DNA of 64,000 nucleotides. Source: Anaerolineae bacterium. Lineage in GTDB: Bacteria; Chloroflexota; Anaerolineae; DUEN01. The notes below the pieces were generated by a model, which was given only the letters and a program-made list of their open reading frames with translations, did no database searches and was not told where the DNA came from. The stretch lies in assembly GCA_025060615.1 (NCBI GenBank), contig JANXBS010000002.1, positions 1 through 64,000 on the forward strand. Reading direction: 5' to 3'. Of this stretch, positions 25,180 to 38,589 are shown one piece after another. The stretch's first letter is position 1. Each line of letters starts with the position of its first letter. Made by a program: the position numbers and the translations under genes.

Positions 25180-26220
25180 ATGCTGGTCATTGACGGCTCT
25201 TATGGCGAAGGCGGAGGGCAGATTCTACGCACGACGCTCAGCCTGGCGGCGATCCTACAGCGTCAGGTTCGCATCGAGCACATTCGCGCCCGGCGGCCGC
25301 AGCCTGGGCTGCGCCCTCAACACCTCACCGCAGTACGGGCGATGGCTGCCATATGCGGCGCCTCGCTGGAGGGCGATCGGGTAGGCTCATGCGAACTGGT
25401 CTTTCGGCCCGGGCATGCCCCGCGTCCCGGCCGCTACGTGTTCGACGTCAGTCAGATGGCCGGGGCCGGCTCGGCCGGCTCGGTGACGTTGATTTTGCAG
25501 ACTGTGTTGCTTCCGTTGGCGCTGGCGGACGGCCCTTCACATCTGGTGCTTCGAGGCGGTACGCACGTGGAGTGGAGTCCACCGTTTCACTACCTCGCCC
25601 ATGTCTATCTGCCTGCGCTGGCCCACATGGGGGTTCATGCGAAAGTCCAATTGATGCATTGGGGCTGGTATCCGCAGGGCGGCGGCGAAATAGTCGCAAA
25701 GGTGGTCGGGGGAGCCCGGTTACAACCACAAGAGTTCATCCAACGTGGCCCACTGCGGCGGCTATGGGGGCTCTCGGCGACGTCGAATTTGCCTACCCAC
25801 ATCCGTCAGCGCCAAGCTGAACAAGCCAGGGCTCGCCTGCATGACGCGGGATTCTCCGCAGATATCCAGCAAGCCGATGCGCCGTCGAAAGGGCCAGGAA
25901 CGTGTGTCTTTCTCTGCGCGGAGCATGAGCGTATTGCGGCGGGGTTCACGGCCTATGGACGGCGAGGCCTGCCGGCCGAACGGGTAGCGGATGCGGCGGT
26001 GGACGAGTTTCTCGCTTATCAGACCGCACGGGGTGCCACAGATGCCCATCTGGCCGACCAGTTGGTGCTGCCACTGGCCTTGGCCGGCGGCGCGTTGACT
26101 ACTGTTCGGATCACCAGTCACCTACTCACTAATATCTGGGTGGTTGAGCAGTTTCTAGGACGACGCTTCACATTGGAAGGTGTGGAGGCACAAGAAGGGC
26201 TACTTCGATGTTTGAATTGA
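25180..26220 (+). CDS. rtcA: RNA 3'-terminal phosphate cyclase
   Basis: Converts an RNA 3'-phosphate to a 2',3'-cyclic phosphate using [16 protein letters not shown] at the N-terminus, [14 protein letters not shown]-like ([15 protein letters not shown]), [31 protein letters not shown] and YPQGGGEIV are family signatures, and the catalytic His lies in [14 protein letters not shown]. Length 346 is normal. The stop overlaps the RNase Z start by 13 bp, so the two RNA-processing enzymes are translationally coupled. The RNA ligase RtcB is in the same window but 14 kb away on the other strand. Confidence 0.95.
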
Positions 26221-27176
26221 TCTTCCTGGGGACCTCGGCTTCGGCTCCGTCGGTGCGCCGCGGCCTCTCCTCAGCGGTCGTTTTATACAAAGAATACCGG
26301 TTCATGATCGACTGTGGTGAGGGCACACAGCGTCAGTTGCTGCGCAGCGGCCTGGGCTTTCGGCGGCTGGATCGTATCCTTCTGACGCATGGACACCTCG
26401 ATCACATTTTGGGGTTGGGAGGACTTGCCTCTACGTTTGGCCGTTGGGAGATGATCCAAGAGCTAGATGTGTACGGCGGGCAGTGGGCATTACAACGCGT
26501 GAAGGCTCTAATGGACGTGGTGTTTGGCCCCGGCCGCCTGCCGCTACGAATAAACTATCACGAGATCGAGCCCGGCGTGGTTTTCCAGGACGACTCGTTT
26601 GTCCTACAGGCTTTCCCCGTGGACCATCGCGGGCCCGGCTGCTTCGGCTACACCTTTGAGGAGAAGCCACGACGGCCCTTCCTCCCCGAGCGAGCGGAGG
26701 CGTTGGGTATCCCAGCCGGGCCGATACGGCGCCAACTCGTGCAGGGCCAGACGGTCACCTTGGAGGATGGCCGGGTGATCCACCCAGACGATGTGTTAGG
26801 GCCGGAGGTCCGGGGAGCTCGCCTGGTCTTCGTAGGGGATGCAGGGCGAACAGATAACCTGGTAGAACAAGCTTGGCAAGCCGACGCGTTGGTCATCGAA
26901 GCCACCTATTGCGAGGAGGAGGCGGAGATGGCCAGGCAGTTCGGTCACCTGACAGCTGCGCAGGCCGCCCGGCTAGCTCAGGAGGCCCAAGTCAAACAGC
27001 TTATCCTAACACATATCTCTCGTCGTTATGGGGCAAAGCGCGTTCTGGCTGAGGCGCTGCCGATCTTCCCCGCCACGGTGGTCGCCAACGATTTCGATCG
27101 CTTTCGCATCTTGAAGGACGGACGCAATATCCGACTGCACGAGGAGCATCTAGAGGACGAGGAAGAGACCGCGTGA
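26208..27176 (+). CDS. rnz: Ribonuclease Z
   Basis: The tRNA 3'-processing endonuclease of the metallo-beta-lactamase fold. [19 protein letters not shown] is the usual start, [14 protein letters not shown] follows, and [13 protein letters not shown] is the zinc-binding HxHxDH motif. [13 protein letters not shown] and [13 protein letters not shown] carry further ligands, and [11 protein letters not shown] the last His. Length is normal for the short bacterial form. Starts inside rtcA (13-bp overlap). Confidence 0.95.
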
Positions 27177-29244: not shown

Positions 29245-29871
29245 TTATCCCTCGTTGCCTAATCTACGCATCAAGTACCACGATGAGGGAAGGCCATGCT
29301 CCTGTCCCACGCGCACCCAGATCGTCTCAAACGTCGGCTCAAACAGGGCGGCCACTTCAGGTGGATCGAGTCCGGCCCAGCCGCGATAGCCCCAGGCATA
29401 CAGCAGATAATGGCCGCCAGGGCGTACTGCGCGTGCGAGCGCAGCCGCGTAGGCTGGGCGGTCGGCTGGCCACAACCCATGCAGACAGCCGATATCCAGC
29501 GCGAAGTCAGCACGCCAGGGGAGAAAATCGAGCCGGGTGACCAGCCCTAAGTGAAAGCGGGCGCGCACACCCGCACGGCGAGCCTTGCGCCGTGCCCGGA
29601 CGATGGCCAGGATGGCGCTGTCCACGCCGATCACCTCAAAGCCATGGCGGGCTAGGTAGATGGCATTGGTCCCGGTGCCGCAGCCCAAGTCGACTGCTCG
29701 GCCGGACGGCACCACGCCACCCTCGATCACTTCGATCACCTCGGGAGGCGTAATGTTCGTGTCCCAAGGCGGCCGGCCTAGATACATCAAATTGAAACGG
29801 AGCAGGTTCCACCACCGTCGCCAGTGAGCAGGGGGGATCATAGTTGGGAGCCTCCACGGGCTCGGGATCAC
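29245..29871 (-). CDS. Class I SAM-dependent methyltransferase
   Basis: The SAM-binding motif I is VDLGCGTGTNAIYLARHG, with VIGVDSA as motif II, DFALDIGCLHGL as motif IV and RAVRPGGHYLLYAWG as motif VI. The N-terminus RFNLMYLGRPPWDTNITPPE resembles small-molecule and tellurite-resistance-like methyltransferases. The start overlaps the upstream stop as GTGA (29871), with AGGGG before it; an ATG at 29841 after GGAGGC is the alternative. Substrate unknown. It sits between the HAS-barrel gene and the propeller lipoprotein. Confidence 0.88.
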   Translation of the reverse strand: MIPSPWRLPTMIPPAHWRRWWNLLRFNLMYLGRPPWDTNITPPEVIEVIEGGVVPSGRAVDLGCGTGTNAIYLARHGFEVIGVDSAILAIVRARRKARRAGVRARFHLGLVTRLDFLPWRADFALDIGCLHGLWPADRPAYAAALARAVRPGGHYLLYAWGYRGWAGLDPPEVAALFEPTFETIWVRVGQEHGLPSSWYLMRRLGNEG

Positions 29872-30458
29872 GGCTCGATCCCCTGTAGTACACTCATCAT
29901 GCGGTCGTAATCATCACGCAGCAGGGCCGCCACTTCTTGCGCTGCCTTCTCCAGCCAGCCCAGATCGTCGCCGCGAGCGGCATAGACTGCGCGAATATGC
30001 GCGGCCAGGAGTTGATCGGCCGGCAATTCGCCCGGAGCGCTCAACAGCAGCCGGAAATATGGCCTTCGCTCGGTGAAGGCGTGCACCTCTTCCGCCGTGC
30101 ATTGCCAAACCGAGTAGTGCAGAGGCGGCGGCTGGGGAGGTAACACCTGGCGCATAGGGCCGTGACCATTGCGAAAGCCCACAAGCAACGCCCGAAACTC
30201 GGTGCGCAACGTGCGTTCCAACTGCGGATGCTCGCGATAGATTGCCTCGTCAAAGACCTCATCGGTGGAACGGCGCACGGCGCGCCGGCCAGGGTCAATC
30301 CCCATGGTGGCACCGAAGCTGACCACTGCATAGAGGACGCGCTCATCCACGTTGACCCGCACCAGGCTGCCCAGCGGGGGCGGCTGGTGGAGGGCAAAGC
30401 TTTCTGCCACAAAGCCCAAGCTATTGGTTTCGATGATCTCGCCGATGCGGTCTGCCAT
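29868..30458 (-). CDS. Stand-alone HAS-barrel protein (HerA N-terminal domain-like)
   Basis: The first 70 residues (ADRIGEIIETNSLGFVAESF, LGSLVRVNVDERVLYAVVSF) match the HAS-barrel found at the N-terminus of HerA-type DNA translocases and of ATP synthase subunits. The remaining 120 residues are alpha-helical and carry no Walker A or B motif, so no ATPase is present. Its gene is 23 bp downstream of the NurA nuclease gene. Known HerA-NurA pairs resect DNA ends; here the HAS domain is separate from any ATPase. It may be a NurA adaptor or regulator, by inference. Confidence 0.72.
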   Translation of the reverse strand: MADRIGEIIETNSLGFVAESFALHQPPPLGSLVRVNVDERVLYAVVSFGATMGIDPGRRAVRRSTDEVFDEAIYREHPQLERTLRTEFRALLVGFRNGHGPMRQVLPPQPPPLHYSVWQCTAEEVHAFTERRPYFRLLLSAPGELPADQLLAAHIRAVYAARGDDLGWLEKAAQEVAALLRDDYDRMMSVLQGIEP

Positions 30459-30481
30459 CTTGCCTCCTGCTCTTCCTCTTT

Positions 30482-31714
30482 CTACACCCCGCGCACGCGC
30501 TTACTGCGGTCTTTTTCCGACCGGGTGTAGATGATCTCGCGCCCAGCGAGCTCTCGTGCCACCATTTCTTCTACCAGTTGTCGCTCGCCCGCCGTGATCA
30601 CAGCCTGTTCGTGCGCCTCGGTGAGCGCAGGAGGATAGCCTTGTCCACGCTGGCACTGATCGTAGACCACGGCGTGAACGCGGTCGAGCAATTCTGGTGT
30701 CTTGGCGACCCAGGCCGGCACCTCCAGGCGGGCGATCTCGCTGCCTATTTTGAGGTAGAAGAAGTACACTTGCTGATCTTGATCAAAGTGCTTAAGCACC
30801 GGATGCCGGCTGCGGAAATAGTCACTGCGCTCGCCGTCCGCCAGATGTTGGGCGAAGAGGAGACGATCGGACAACATAGCTAGGGGAGCGCAGCGGGGAC
30901 GTCGTTGGTAAACTGTGACGGCCTGGCACTGACGGCAGATGACCGATGGATCAGGGCAGAGGCCCACCCGGAGCGCGTTGATCACATCGTCAGCGCCTGG
31001 GTGACTAGTGTAGGCGGCTAGGGGCACGTTCAGCTCGCGTAACCGCCGGAGCGCCCGTTGATACGGCTCCAGGAAATGCCGGCGCACCTCCTCATCAATA
31101 CCTGGGCTGTCCAATCCCCACAGGATGAGGGTGCCATCCCGGAGGGCTACCATCTCTTGTGACGAGATGGCCATCACCGCATGCAAGAGCGCGGTCATCT
31201 CATCTACGGCCACTTTGAGCGCCAGCAATGCACCCTCGATGGGCAGCGTCCGATGATCGGGCGAGAGAAACACCTCTTCATCACGATAGTAAAGTTGGGT
31301 GGTGGCATCCAGCTCGGCTCGGGATTCGCTGCCATAGGTAAGCACGGCGTAGCCGGTGTTGATGATGAAGAAGCGCACAGGGCTATGGCGATCCGGGGCG
31401 ATGTAAGAGCCGTCGGCAGCCACAACGGTGAAATCGGCCGGGCAGGGAGGCAACGGATAGCACGTGGCGAGGGTGCGCTCGGGGTAGGCCACCAGCCAGT
31501 CAGGCCTAGCCTGGGGATCATCCAGGCGAGCACGCACGTGAGCCGGATCGGTGACGCGCAGCCGCTCCAGAGCCAACGGCAACCGGCCGTGACGATCTTC
31601 CCCATCAAAGGCCTGTGCCATCTCATAGATGGCCTGGACGATCACATCCAACTTCAGGGGCATCGGAAAAGCGCCCTTTCCGTCACTAAGGAATAGGGGA
31701 TTATCAAGTTCCAT
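30482..31714 (-). CDS. nurA: NurA-domain nuclease
   Basis: A 5'-3' nuclease of the NurA family, partner of the HerA translocase in DNA-end resection. FTVVAADGSYIAPDRHSPV holds the first catalytic Asp, ALRDGTLILWGL the second acidic cluster and GYPPALTEAHEQAVITAGER the C-terminal conserved motif. A four-Cys-like patch (CPDPSVICRQCQAV) lies about residue 265. Two starts are possible: ATG 31714, almost at the predicted transcript start (leaderless), or ATG 31663 with an AAAGGG upstream. The next gene downstream is the HAS-barrel protein; no HerA ATPase is in the window. Confidence 0.85.
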   Translation of the reverse strand: MELDNPLFLSDGKGAFPMPLKLDVIVQAIYEMAQAFDGEDRHGRLPLALERLRVTDPAHVRARLDDPQARPDWLVAYPERTLATCYPLPPCPADFTVVAADGSYIAPDRHSPVRFFIINTGYAVLTYGSESRAELDATTQLYYRDEEVFLSPDHRTLPIEGALLALKVAVDEMTALLHAVMAISSQEMVALRDGTLILWGLDSPGIDEEVRRHFLEPYQRALRRLRELNVPLAAYTSHPGADDVINALRVGLCPDPSVICRQCQAVTVYQRRPRCAPLAMLSDRLLFAQHLADGERSDYFRSRHPVLKHFDQDQQVYFFYLKIGSEIARLEVPAWVAKTPELLDRVHAVVYDQCQRGQGYPPALTEAHEQAVITAGERQLVEEMVARELAGREIIYTRSEKDRSKRVRGV

Positions 31715-32968: not shown

Positions 32969-33092
32969 GATAGTTACTCTCGCATGGTCTAATCCGATTA
33001 TACCATGCAGCCGCGCTCCTGGCAAGGCTCCTCGCTTACCTCCTCTTGATCTGAACTCTTGCGCCTGAGATTGAATTGATGAAACCTCTCCC

Positions 33093-33121
33093 TTGTGAAT
33101 TGTATCAAGATGAGATATACT
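33093..33121 (+). promoter_or_regulatory. Sigma-70 promoter for the heptad-repeat protein
   Basis: TTGTGA, 17 bp, TATACT, predicted start near 33128. This places transcription downstream of the longest-frame ATG (33076) and supports the start at 33151/33154. Confidence 0.6.
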
Positions 33122-33153
33122 TTGATTGGAACTCACGAAGAGTGGAGGGCATG

Positions 33154-34281
33154 ATGGCTTTCACTGTACAAGATTACTTCGATCTGGTACGACTACTGGC
33201 AGAGCACCCCGAATGGCGTGCTGAGCTGAGGCGGCTCGTCTTATCAGATGAGGTGCTGACGCTTCCAGAACTCGTACGAGAGCTGGCGGAAATCCAGCGG
33301 CGCACCGAGGAGCGGTTGGAGGTTCTGGCGCAGCATGTGGATGCGCTGATCGAGACTCAACGGCGCACCGAGGAGCGTGTGAACGCACTGGCTGAGGCTC
33401 AGCAGCGCACCGAGGAGCGGCTGGCGGCTTTAGCGCAGCATATAGATGAGCTGACGCAGCGGTTGAATACGCTCACCCAACGGGTGGATGAGCTCACGCA
33501 ACGGCTGAATGCGCTCACGCAGCGAGTAGATGAGCTCACCCAACGAGTGGATGCGCTCACACAGCGGGTGGACGAGCTGACGCAGCGGTTGAATACGCTC
33601 ACCCAACGGGTGGATGAGCTCACGCAACGGCTGAATGCGCTCACGCAGCGAGTAGATGAGCTCACCCAACGAGTGGATGCGCTCACACAACGGGTGGATG
33701 TGCTCACACAACGAGTGGATGCATTGGCCGAGGCTCAACGACGTACCGAGCAGCAATTGGAAGCCCTGGCGACCACGGTCAACAACCTAACCTTGGAAGT
33801 CACAGAGCTAACGCACACTCAGAAGCGAATCATCGACCGATTGGCCAAACTCGAAGGGCGCATGCTGGAATGGGAGTACCGCGAGAAAGCCCCCGCTTTC
33901 TTTGGTTCACTGCTGCGTAAGACTCGGCTCGCCAGGCGAGAGGAATTGGCCGACCAGGTGGAAGACCGTCTGCCACTCAATGAGTTCCGAGACGTGCTTT
34001 TGGCCGATCTCTTCGTGCAAGGTCAGCCGCGTGCGCTCCCACAAGCAGGGAATGTGCTGCTAGTTGTGGAGGTCTCCTCGGTGGTGGATGAGGGGGACGT
34101 CACCCGAGCGGGGCGTCGGGCCTCTCTATTGCGTCAGGCCGGCTTACGGACCGTCCCTGTAGTTGCTGGGGAGAGCATCACCGAGAGCGGGGATCTCGAA
34201 GCCCGTCGTCAGAATGTAGTGATCATCCAGGATGGGGAGCACCTGCGATGGGATGAAGCCCTCATCGCTTGGGTTCAATGA
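33154..34281 (+). CDS. Heptad-repeat coiled-coil protein with degenerate nuclease-like C-terminal domain
   Basis: The start at 33151 or 33154 follows GGAGG; 33154 has the better spacing. Residues 1-45 form a globular lead (FTVQDYFDLVRLLAEHPEWR). Residues about 45-235 are a long coiled coil of seven-residue units, chiefly LTQRVDE, LTQRLNT and LTQRVDA. The C-terminal 135 residues (AFFGSLLRKTRLARREELAD, RDVLLADLFVQG, NVLLVVEVSSVVDEGDV) have the strand order of a restriction-endonuclease fold. The expected Glu-x-Lys is Glu-x-Ser, so it may be inactive. Similar proteins with DUF3782-like domains are common in Cyanobacteria and Chloroflexota; function unknown. Confidence 0.72.
   Translation: MAFTVQDYFDLVRLLAEHPEWRAELRRLVLSDEVLTLPELVRELAEIQRRTEERLEVLAQHVDALIETQRRTEERVNALAEAQQRTEERLAALAQHIDELTQRLNTLTQRVDELTQRLNALTQRVDELTQRVDALTQRVDELTQRLNTLTQRVDELTQRLNALTQRVDELTQRVDALTQRVDVLTQRVDALAEAQRRTEQQLEALATTVNNLTLEVTELTHTQKRIIDRLAKLEGRMLEWEYREKAPAFFGSLLRKTRLARREELADQVEDRLPLNEFRDVLLADLFVQGQPRALPQAGNVLLVVEVSSVVDEGDVTRAGRRASLLRQAGLRTVPVVAGESITESGDLEARRQNVVIIQDGEHLRWDEALIAWVQ
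33451..33702 (+). repeat. Two tandem 126-bp units made of 21-bp coding repeats
   Basis: The 21-bp unit encodes a heptad (LTQRxxx). Six heptads in the order NT, DE, NA, DE, DA, DE form a 126-bp block that occurs at 33451-33576 and again, almost unchanged, at 33577-33702, indicating a recent internal duplication. Further degenerate heptads follow to about 33740. Length changes in multiples of 21 keep the frame. Confidence 0.85.
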
Positions 34282-35553: not shown

Positions 35554-37074
35554 TCACCCCAGCCGACGCGCCGCTTTGCCCTGCCACTCTGGGGGATGAG
35601 GTGAAGCCAGGGATGCATGTCTGCGTCGGTTGTAGAGAAAGAAGCGCTTGGCATCTCGAATCCGTTCTGGCGCTCTTCGCCAGGTATCCCACTGGAACAA
35701 TCGGCGCGCCAACCGGCGGGGACGCAGGTAAAAGCGGCGATAGGCCTCATGCCACTTTCGCTCGACCAGCTCCGCCGTCAGCTCTCCCATTTGAAAATGG
35801 GCTTTATCATCCTGGATAGCGAGATCACCCCAATCGTGGGAGAAGATCTCTGCCCCCTCCTCATGCAGCATCTCCCACAGCCTGGTGCCGGGATATGGCG
35901 CAGCGATCATGAAATGCGCCAGGTCTGGCTCCAGCTCCAAAGCGAACCGGATAGTCTTCTCCATCGTCTCCTCGGTCTCATGGGGCATCCCGAAGATGAA
36001 GAAGCCCATGGTCTGCAGGCCGGCCGCCTTGGCATCGCGAAACGCCTGCCGCACCATATCCAGCGTCTGACCTTTGCGGATGATCTTATTCAGGATCTCC
36101 TGATCGCCCGATTCCACGCCGAAGCCGACGCGCTTGGCTCCGGCCGCCTTCATTAACTGGAAGAGCTCTAGGTCCGTGTAATTGACCTTCATGCCGTGCA
36201 CGGTCACCCATGGCACTGTGTTCAGCCCCTCGGCGATGAGGCGGCGACACAACTCCTTAGCCCGCTTGAGGTCGCGGTTCCAGATGTCGTCGGTGATGCC
36301 GATCTCGGTCGCCTTCAAATCCCGCACCAGCCAACGCCACTCCGCGATCACGTTGTCCACGGAACGCATGCGCCAGGTATCGCCGGTGATGGGCTTCGAA
36401 CAGAAGGTGCATTTGAAAGGACACCCACGGCTGGTGACGATGGTGTATGAGCGCGAGCCCGGGATCAGCCCATCCGTCAGAGGTTGCAGATTCGTATATT
36501 GCTCGATCTTGAACAGATCATGGGCAGGAAACGGGATGTTGTCCAGATCAGGACGGAGCGGCCGTGGCGGATTATGAACGATCGCACCGCCGTTCCCGTT
36601 AACGCGGCGATAGGATAGCCCCAAAATTTCTGACCAAGCCTTATGCTCAAAGAGGCGAGGAGCCGTACTGGATGCCTGTACACCAGCGTCTAACTCTAAC
36701 GCCTGCATGATCTCGACGATGGTATCCTCGCCTTCGCCGCGCACCACCAGGTCCACTTCTGGGCGCTGCATGGATTCCTCTGGCTGCAAAGTCAGATGCG
36801 GGCCGCCCAAAATGGTCACCGCCCCGGTGGACTTAGCAACGCGCGCCGCCTCCCACGCCTCTTTAATCAACGGCGTCGGCGATGAGATGCCGACCACGTC
36901 ATAACGGCCGCGGCGCAGGACATCGGCCAGCGGCTCCTTCTCAACGGCAGCATCGTAGATTTCCACCGGATAACCGGCCGCCCGTAGGGCACCGGCCAGA
37001 TACCCTAGCCCCATATGGATGTGCTGGCGCGAGTTCCAAACCTTCGACTCAGGACTGGCCAGAAGGACCCGCAT
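35554..37074 (-). CDS. B12-binding-domain radical SAM protein (paralogue 2)
   Basis: Residues 1-145 form a cobalamin-binding-type Rossmann domain ([52 protein letters not shown]). The usual DxHxxG cobalamin ligand motif is not visible. Residues about 195-420 are the radical-SAM barrel: [17 protein letters not shown] (C-x3-C-x2-C), [13 protein letters not shown] and [12 protein letters not shown] basic C-terminal tail follows ([15 protein letters not shown]). It is clearly a duplicate of the next gene upstream (shared [22 protein letters not shown], GFFIxGxP, RxFYLRPxR), 15 bp away. Substrate unknown. Confidence 0.88.
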
Positions 37075-37089
37075 TAGGCAGTGCCTCCT

Positions 37090-38589
37090 TTAAATCGCCC
37101 CTTGGGCTTTCAGCTCCTTGCGCAGTTCGGTCTTCTCCCGACGAGGGAAGATCACCCGCCAGGCCACGCGGAACGTGCGACTGTAGTTCAGCCAGAAATC
37201 CTTGCGGCTGATGGTCATGAGGATGCGATGCGGGCGTAGGTAGAACTGGCGATAGGCCTTCTTCCACATCTCCTCCTGTAGCTCCGCCGTTAAATCGCCC
37301 AACTCATAACGGGCACGGCCCTCGAAGAAGACGTAGTCCTCCCAATCTTCCATCAGAAGACGCCCCTTAGTCTTAGCGATCTCGTAGACCTTAGTGCCTG
37401 GATAGGGGGTCATCATCGAGAAATTGGCTACCAGCGGATCCAGCTTACAAGCGAAATCGATCGTGCGTTGCATCGTCTCGCGGGTATCACCCGGCAGGCC
37501 GATGATGAAAAAGCCGATCGTCTCTAACCCGACGGCCTTAGCGTTCTGGAAGGCCTGCTCAATGGTCTCGATGGTGATATGTTTCTCAATAGACCTCATG
37601 ATCTCTGGATCGCCGGATTCCACACCGAAGGCCGTCCGTTTGAGCCCCGCCTGTTTGAGCTTGGCCAGGAGCTCTTTCGTGGCCAGGTTAGCGCGGATAC
37701 CGTTCACAAAGATCCATGGTACGTGATTGAGACGATTTGCGATCAGCAGGTCGGCCAAGACGTGCAGCCGATCCATACGGATGTTGGCGCTGTCGTCCAA
37801 TACGCCGATCTCCTCTGCCCCTAGATCACGCACCAGATGTCGCCATTCCTCTAGCACATTCTCCGGGCTGCGTGCCCGCCACTTAATCGGCATGATGGAC
37901 TGAGAACAGAAAGTGCAACGATATGGGCAGCCGCGGCTAGTCAGGATGGAGAAAGAGCGCGCCCCGTCCACGTGATCAATCGCCGGCTGCAGGTTGGTAT
38001 AGCGTTCCATCTTAAAAAGATGATACGCGGGCCAGGGCAGGCTGTCCAGGTCTTTGATGGCCGGGCGATCCGGATTGCGGTGAAGCTGGCCATCGCTGGT
38101 CTTATAGCTAATGCCCAGCACACCCTTCCACAGCTCTTTAGCCGGATCCATCAGCGCCGCAGTGGAGAAGGTCGGTTGATCGCGCAGGAAAGATTCTACC
38201 ACGTTGCAGACCTCGACCCAAGTCGCCTCGCCTTCGCCGCGCACCACGATGTCAATCCCGTGCTCCAACGACTCGAAATCAAGGTTTTCAGACACCACGC
38301 TGGGGTGAGGGCCGCCGATCACCACGGGGATGTCCAGCACCTGTTTAACGGCAGCCGCCGTCCGCCACGCCTGTTTGACCTGGGGAGTATTAGCGGTGAT
38401 GCCCACGATGTGCGGACGAAACTCCTGCAAGAACTCCGTCAGCGGTTGGTCTTCCACATCGGCGTCGAAGATGCGGACCTCGTCACCACGCTCTTCGGAC
38501 ACCGCGCCCAAGTAGGCCAACCCTAAGTGGGGCGTAGTACGGGTGTCAATCGGCAAACGGAACCGTGGGTTGATTAACGCGACGCGCAC
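37090..38589 (-). CDS. B12-binding-domain radical SAM protein (paralogue 1)
   Basis: Same two-domain plan as its neighbour: a B12-fold domain ([60 protein letters not shown]), then the radical-SAM core (ILTSRGCPYRCTFCSQSIM, AFGVESGDPEIMRSI, FFIIGLPGDTRETM, PYPGTKVYEIA). The DxHxxG cobalamin motif is not seen. The paired genes look like a tandem duplication, which suggests successive or related reactions. Ribosome site GGAGGAAAATC precedes the ATG, 153 bp after the first gene of the set. Confidence 0.88.
   Translation of the reverse strand: MRVALINPRFRLPIDTRTTPHLGLAYLGAVSEERGDEVRIFDADVEDQPLTEFLQEFRPHIVGITANTPQVKQAWRTAAAVKQVLDIPVVIGGPHPSVVSENLDFESLEHGIDIVVRGEGEATWVEVCNVVESFLRDQPTFSTAALMDPAKELWKGVLGISYKTSDGQLHRNPDRPAIKDLDSLPWPAYHLFKMERYTNLQPAIDHVDGARSFSILTSRGCPYRCTFCSQSIMPIKWRARSPENVLEEWRHLVRDLGAEEIGVLDDSANIRMDRLHVLADLLIANRLNHVPWIFVNGIRANLATKELLAKLKQAGLKRTAFGVESGDPEIMRSIEKHITIETIEQAFQNAKAVGLETIGFFIIGLPGDTRETMQRTIDFACKLDPLVANFSMMTPYPGTKVYEIAKTKGRLLMEDWEDYVFFEGRARYELGDLTAELQEEMWKKAYRQFYLRPHRILMTISRKDFWLNYSRTFRVAWRVIFPRREKTELRKELKAQGAI

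Follow-up and report, generated by a model that had tools for sequence, protein, structure and literature searches.

A free-standing HAS-barrel protein as a candidate third partner of the NurA-HerA system

Results

The window analyzed here is a 64,000-nucleotide stretch of an Anaerolineae bacterium genome, in which three adjoining genes on the minus strand were of interest. The first, nurA (30482-31714), encodes a 410-amino-acid nuclease of the NurA family that belongs to the A lineage of the two lineages described below. Its match to PF09376 is strong, with E 3.2e-28 and a score of 99.3 bits where the cut-off is 21. D101 (within DGS), E172 and D193 (within DG), which from knowledge of the NurA family we take to be the catalytic acidic residues, are each present in no fewer than 98 of the 99 aligned NurA sequences. 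Y360 is kept in 98 of the 99, and so is a basic tail at the C terminus that includes K401 and K405. Given the profile score and these residues, the original prediction that this gene encodes NurA holds. NurA tails are basic in all 99 sequences, and the free-standing HAS proteins described next are net acidic.

The second gene (29868-30458) encodes a protein of 196 amino acids that we refer to as the HAS protein. It starts 23 bp past the nurA stop codon, and within that gap an AGGAGG ribosome-binding site (30463-30468, minus strand), read directly from the DNA, lies four bases ahead of the ATG. The third gene (29245-29871) encodes a SAM-dependent methyltransferase of 208 amino acids (PF13649, E 8.9e-18), whose GTG start shares 4 bp (GTGA) with the HAS stop codon, an overlap that suggests translational coupling in this genome only. 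The methyltransferase gave a strong match (E 5e-146) at the window locus and nowhere else, apart from two weak matches (E ~1e-6); because the other loci carry no strong relative, we dropped it as a component of the system. The PADLOC model mads_2 matches this neighbor in the methyltransferase region only (E 3.7e-20).

Three further features of the window are recorded in passing. On the plus strand (25180-27176), the gene for an RNA 3'-terminal phosphate cyclase shares 13 bp with that for a tRNase Z-like metallo-hydrolase. A 401-amino-acid protein that contains an extended array of near-identical coiled-coil repeats (LTQRVDELTQRLNALTQRVD) is encoded at 33076-34281, and a tandem pair of similar radical-SAM-like proteins, each of ~500 amino acids, at 35554-38589.

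The HAS protein is not a HerA, as its 196 residues contain neither a DUF87 match nor a Walker A motif. Direct Pfam and NCBIfam scans of its own sequence matched no relevant model, PF09378 included, and a chorismate-synthase match from these scans was judged spurious. PF09378 was matched by 12 of 22 relatives (best E 1.3e-15); in genome G110, a relative whose gene adjoins nurA reached 59.3 bits, the cut-off being 25.2. Since the window sequence itself has no match, its membership in PF09378 rests on these relatives and on its predicted fold. A sequence search with a profile of the 22 relatives found no solved structure. An AlphaFold2 model built with the same relatives (pLDDT 91.2, pTM 0.86) has an N-terminal beta barrel (approximately residues 1 to 120) followed by C-terminal helices (147 to 194) in the place where HerA has its RecA domain. 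All 40 Foldseek matches to this model at E ≤0.001 were chains of HerA or HerA-type complexes; HerA N-terminal regions ranked first, the best being Sulfolobus HerA (E 5.0e-6). VIA-align superposed the model on the same Sulfolobus HerA (4d2i) with a Z score of 13.7 (116 residues, rmsd 4.7) and on a SIR2-HerA complex (8woc) with a Z score of 13.3 (109 residues, rmsd 2.9), while F1-ATPase barrels matched lower (Z ~11). Because HerA N-terminal regions are the first fold matches, and in view of the relatives' PF09378 matches, we identify the modeled product of 29868-30458 as a free-standing HAS barrel without a motor. The original prediction had described a separate HAS-barrel gene with a different C-terminal part and no Walker motifs, and had counted a failed profile search of the resemblance against itself; both the description and the resemblance held up once relatives and fold were used, though the window sequence alone gave no match. 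The protein shares its barrel fold with the N-terminal barrels of HerA and F1-ATPases, and its relatives pass the Pfam cut-off. What differs is that the barrel here is the product of a separate gene of ~200 codons with C-terminal helices of its own, and that in sequence it forms a family apart from the N terminus of the HerA with which it travels.

The window contains no HerA gene, as originally noted: all four DUF87 matches in the genome fall outside C2:1-64000. At the level of the genome, the absence of HerA did not hold. A complete HerA of 552 amino acids is encoded on another contig (G000:C3:89282-90937), the only complete HerA found, with a HAS barrel of its own (PF09378, E 3.1e-7), a DUF87 motor (PF01935, E 6.4e-26) and the Walker A motif GQSGTGKS. 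The original prediction had counted against itself a complete HerA elsewhere, with its own HAS barrel, shown to be NurA's sole partner; such a HerA is present, and the claim of sole partnership goes beyond its existence.

Across 151 genomes of one phylum, the HAS gene was largely found where HerA and NurA were found. The window's type of HAS protein (A-type) was present in 59 genomes, all 59 of which were among the 62 encoding an A-type HerA, and 58 of the 59 also encoded NurA. The corresponding Fisher P value (~1e-38) ignores shared ancestry and is descriptive; the counts, likewise uncorrected for ancestry, span ~40 family-level groups. The three genomes with an A-type HerA and no HAS match comprised one with a divergent HAS gene directly before HerA (G032, L154), one whose HerA is truncated at the end of a contig (G105) and one in which HerA is present and both HAS and NurA are absent (G020). 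Counting both types, a free-standing HAS protein was encoded in 92 of 99 genomes with NurA, compared to 2 of 52 without it. In one genome (G134, C12:41120-42655, L156) HerA is in pieces with an internal stop, NurA was not found and the HAS gene is retained, a state that may represent decay of the whole NurA-HAS-HerA system.

Gene order was equally consistent over 142 loci, a few of which overlap. NurA, where found, lay upstream of HAS on the same strand (98 of 98), and HerA lay downstream on the same strand (121 of 121), with median gaps of 23 nt between HAS and HerA and 294 nt between NurA and HAS. No fusion of HAS with NurA or with HerA occurred in any of the loci searched. In a separate genome collection, whose named relatives are nearly all Chloroflexota, HAS was encoded in 80 of 80 related loci; within the flank, 53 held the ordered trio, 22 HAS and HerA, 4 NurA and HAS and 1 HAS alone, many of these 80 loci being cut by contig ends. 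Where clusters are broken, the HAS gene remains with one partner or the other. In 19 of the 59 A-type genomes, including that of the window, it sits just behind NurA, with HerA on a different contig in 16 of them and at a distance of over 1 Mb in the other 3, and in 14 B-type loci with NurA elsewhere it still directly precedes HerA. Many Dehalococcoidia loci (L036-L115) carry an extra 1 to 2.7 kb between nurA and the HAS gene.

Genomes with NurA but without the A-type HAS encode a different protein of ~200 amino acids behind NurA or before HerA, together with another HerA subfamily. This B-type HAS was present in 36 of the 151 genomes, a count taken after three weak A-type matches were set aside. 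An hhalign comparison aligned the two types across 163 columns (E 1.4e-9) that take in some of the C-terminal helices, and at the level of sequence profiles we regard the two families as homologous. Against the N terminus of its own HerA, neither family aligned significantly (E 0.033 for A and 0.076 for B, compared to 1.4e-9 between the families), and we discarded the idea that HAS is a recent duplicate of this HerA's N terminus. For a model of the B-type protein (pLDDT 82.3), HerA is again the first match (Foldseek E 1.4e-6; VIA Z 13.6, 110 residues, rmsd 2.3). The A version of HAS pairs only with the A versions of NurA and HerA, and B with B; no mixed locus was found. One genome (G030) combines a full A-type trio with a HAS-HerA pair of the B type (L157, L148).

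Relatives of the B type were also found on four haloarchaeal plasmids (L136, L137, L138, L139), where HerA, HAS and NurA matches fall one to one on the same four records. The Natrinema, Halobaculum and DL31 plasmids encode, in this order, an SMC/Rad50-type ATPase, NurA, the HAS protein and HerA, with a Mre11-type metallophosphoesterase ahead of this row in Natrinema and DL31; the circular Halorussus record begins inside the NurA region. The plasmid search found no relative of the window's own HAS protein or NurA, and the phages and viral contigs searched yielded no relative.

Discussion

The main end-resection machine of archaea, NurA-HerA, is described as consisting of two proteins. In the known complexes the HAS ring of HerA docks the NurA dimer, and the Sulfolobus, Deinococcus and Thermococcus systems work with HerA and NurA alone. 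The loci described here resemble the known systems of Sulfolobus, Thermococcus and Deinococcus radiodurans in their NurA nuclease with its catalytic residues, in their HerA with a HAS barrel and Walker motifs, in the linkage of nurA and herA among relatives and in the mre11/rad50-type genes that stand in front on the archaeal plasmids. Unlike the known complexes, which have two components (HerA:NurA 6:2 in D. radiodurans), they encode between nurA and herA a third, motor-less HAS-barrel protein. Given its co-occurrence with NurA and HerA, the fixed NurA-HAS-HerA order and the consistent pairing of A with A and B with B, we are confident that the HAS protein belongs to the NurA-HerA system. With less assurance, we favor the reading that it is a dedicated third subunit, probably an adaptor at the interface between motor and nuclease. 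Two points count against this reading: the Sulfolobus, Deinococcus and Thermococcus systems need only HerA and NurA, so that the core mechanism does not require it, and HerA here retains its own HAS barrel, so that the separate protein is no simple substitute. By analogy with known HerA-NurA, the cellular role is likely resection of DNA ends at double-strand breaks.

As such an adaptor, the HAS protein would form a complex with both hexameric HerA and dimeric NurA, at the place where HerA's HAS ring meets NurA. There, as adaptor or collar, it would help a two-fold nuclease to sit on a six-fold motor and would couple DNA pumping to cutting. In the window's genome, HerA would have moved away from the operon. 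We place the protein at this interface because NurA tails are basic, HAS proteins are net acidic and the contact between HerA's HAS domains and NurA in D. radiodurans is described as ionic, with R336, R337 and R339 among the basic NurA residues, in passages of PMC9960219. Passages of that report and of three others (PMC5715905, PMC7776575 and PMC8708640) describe NurA-HerA as a two-protein machine and make no mention of a separate HAS protein; an earlier mention is possible, the 2004 survey of FtsK-HerA proteins by Iyer and colleagues being outside the scope of these passages.

Two other readings keep the HAS protein within the system and assign it to one partner. It might regulate or chaperone NurA, mimicking HerA's docking domain and filling the HerA-binding face of the nuclease so as to keep it inactive or soluble until displaced by HerA. 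A NurA-docking fold without a motor would suit this role, as would the genomes in which HAS lies just behind NurA and HerA is distant, but the 14 B-type loci keep HAS with HerA and not with NurA, and over all loci HAS lies nearer to HerA; we therefore think this reading rather unlikely. Slightly less probable still is that HAS serves HerA, in ring assembly, capping or loading or as a motor-less ring subunit, with no direct contact to NurA. HAS barrels do form the ring crowns of HerA and of F1-ATPases, both among the fold matches, and linkage to HerA, always downstream, is tight. Against this, A-lineage genomes often retain HAS beside NurA instead of HerA, and HerA hexamers assemble unaided in the solved systems.

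The original prediction had itself offered an adaptor that recruits a distant ATPase, or a NurA-only nuclease. A modified version of the adaptor idea survives, as the ATPase appears to be the ordinary HerA, encoded directly downstream of HAS in many relatives; the NurA-only nuclease does not, with HerA in all 59 A-type genomes. That HAS recruits some different, distant ATPase to NurA, or forms a HerA-free nuclease with it, is very improbable for the same reasons and in view of the full HerA in the window's genome, even though HerA is not adjacent in the window and the genome has other DUF87/FtsK-like ATPases.

A defensive role, also suggested originally, found no backing, and we give a similarly slight chance to NurA, HAS and HerA being an anti-phage system. 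HerA-type motors do partner with effectors in several defense complexes (TdpAB, HerA-SIR2, HerA-DUF4297) that are among the best fold matches of the HAS model, but the entries for these indicate no free-standing HAS subunit, their effectors differ, and no such defense context was found here. Neither NurA nor the HAS protein has a PADLOC match (for HerA, PADLOC returned HerA models and one mads_8 ATPase model), the neighbors examined are ordinary chromosomal genes (RtcA, tRNase Z, EamA, radical-SAM), the system is broadly conserved across the phylum with none found in phages or viral contigs, and the archaeal loci are preceded by mre11/rad50-type genes.

More speculatively, and with distinctly less confidence than in the adaptor reading itself, one may picture NurA-HerA as a three-protein machine in some archaea and across much of one bacterial phylum. 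In it HAS, older than the split into two lineages, would lie between motor and nuclease as a second ring or a mixed collar and so solve the two-on-six symmetry mismatch. A third partner, if real, would change what must be reconstituted to study NurA-HerA systems, and it would offer a natural handle on the open question of how coupling is achieved between a nuclease dimer and a motor hexamer. The candidate is present in the 92 of 99 NurA genomes of the phylum noted above and on the haloarchaeal plasmids, where it is annotated as a "hypothetical protein." For one of these plasmid records (L139), PLSDB predicts a resistance gene ("DES-1 beta-lactamase") that overlaps the end of herA; the prediction appears to be spurious.
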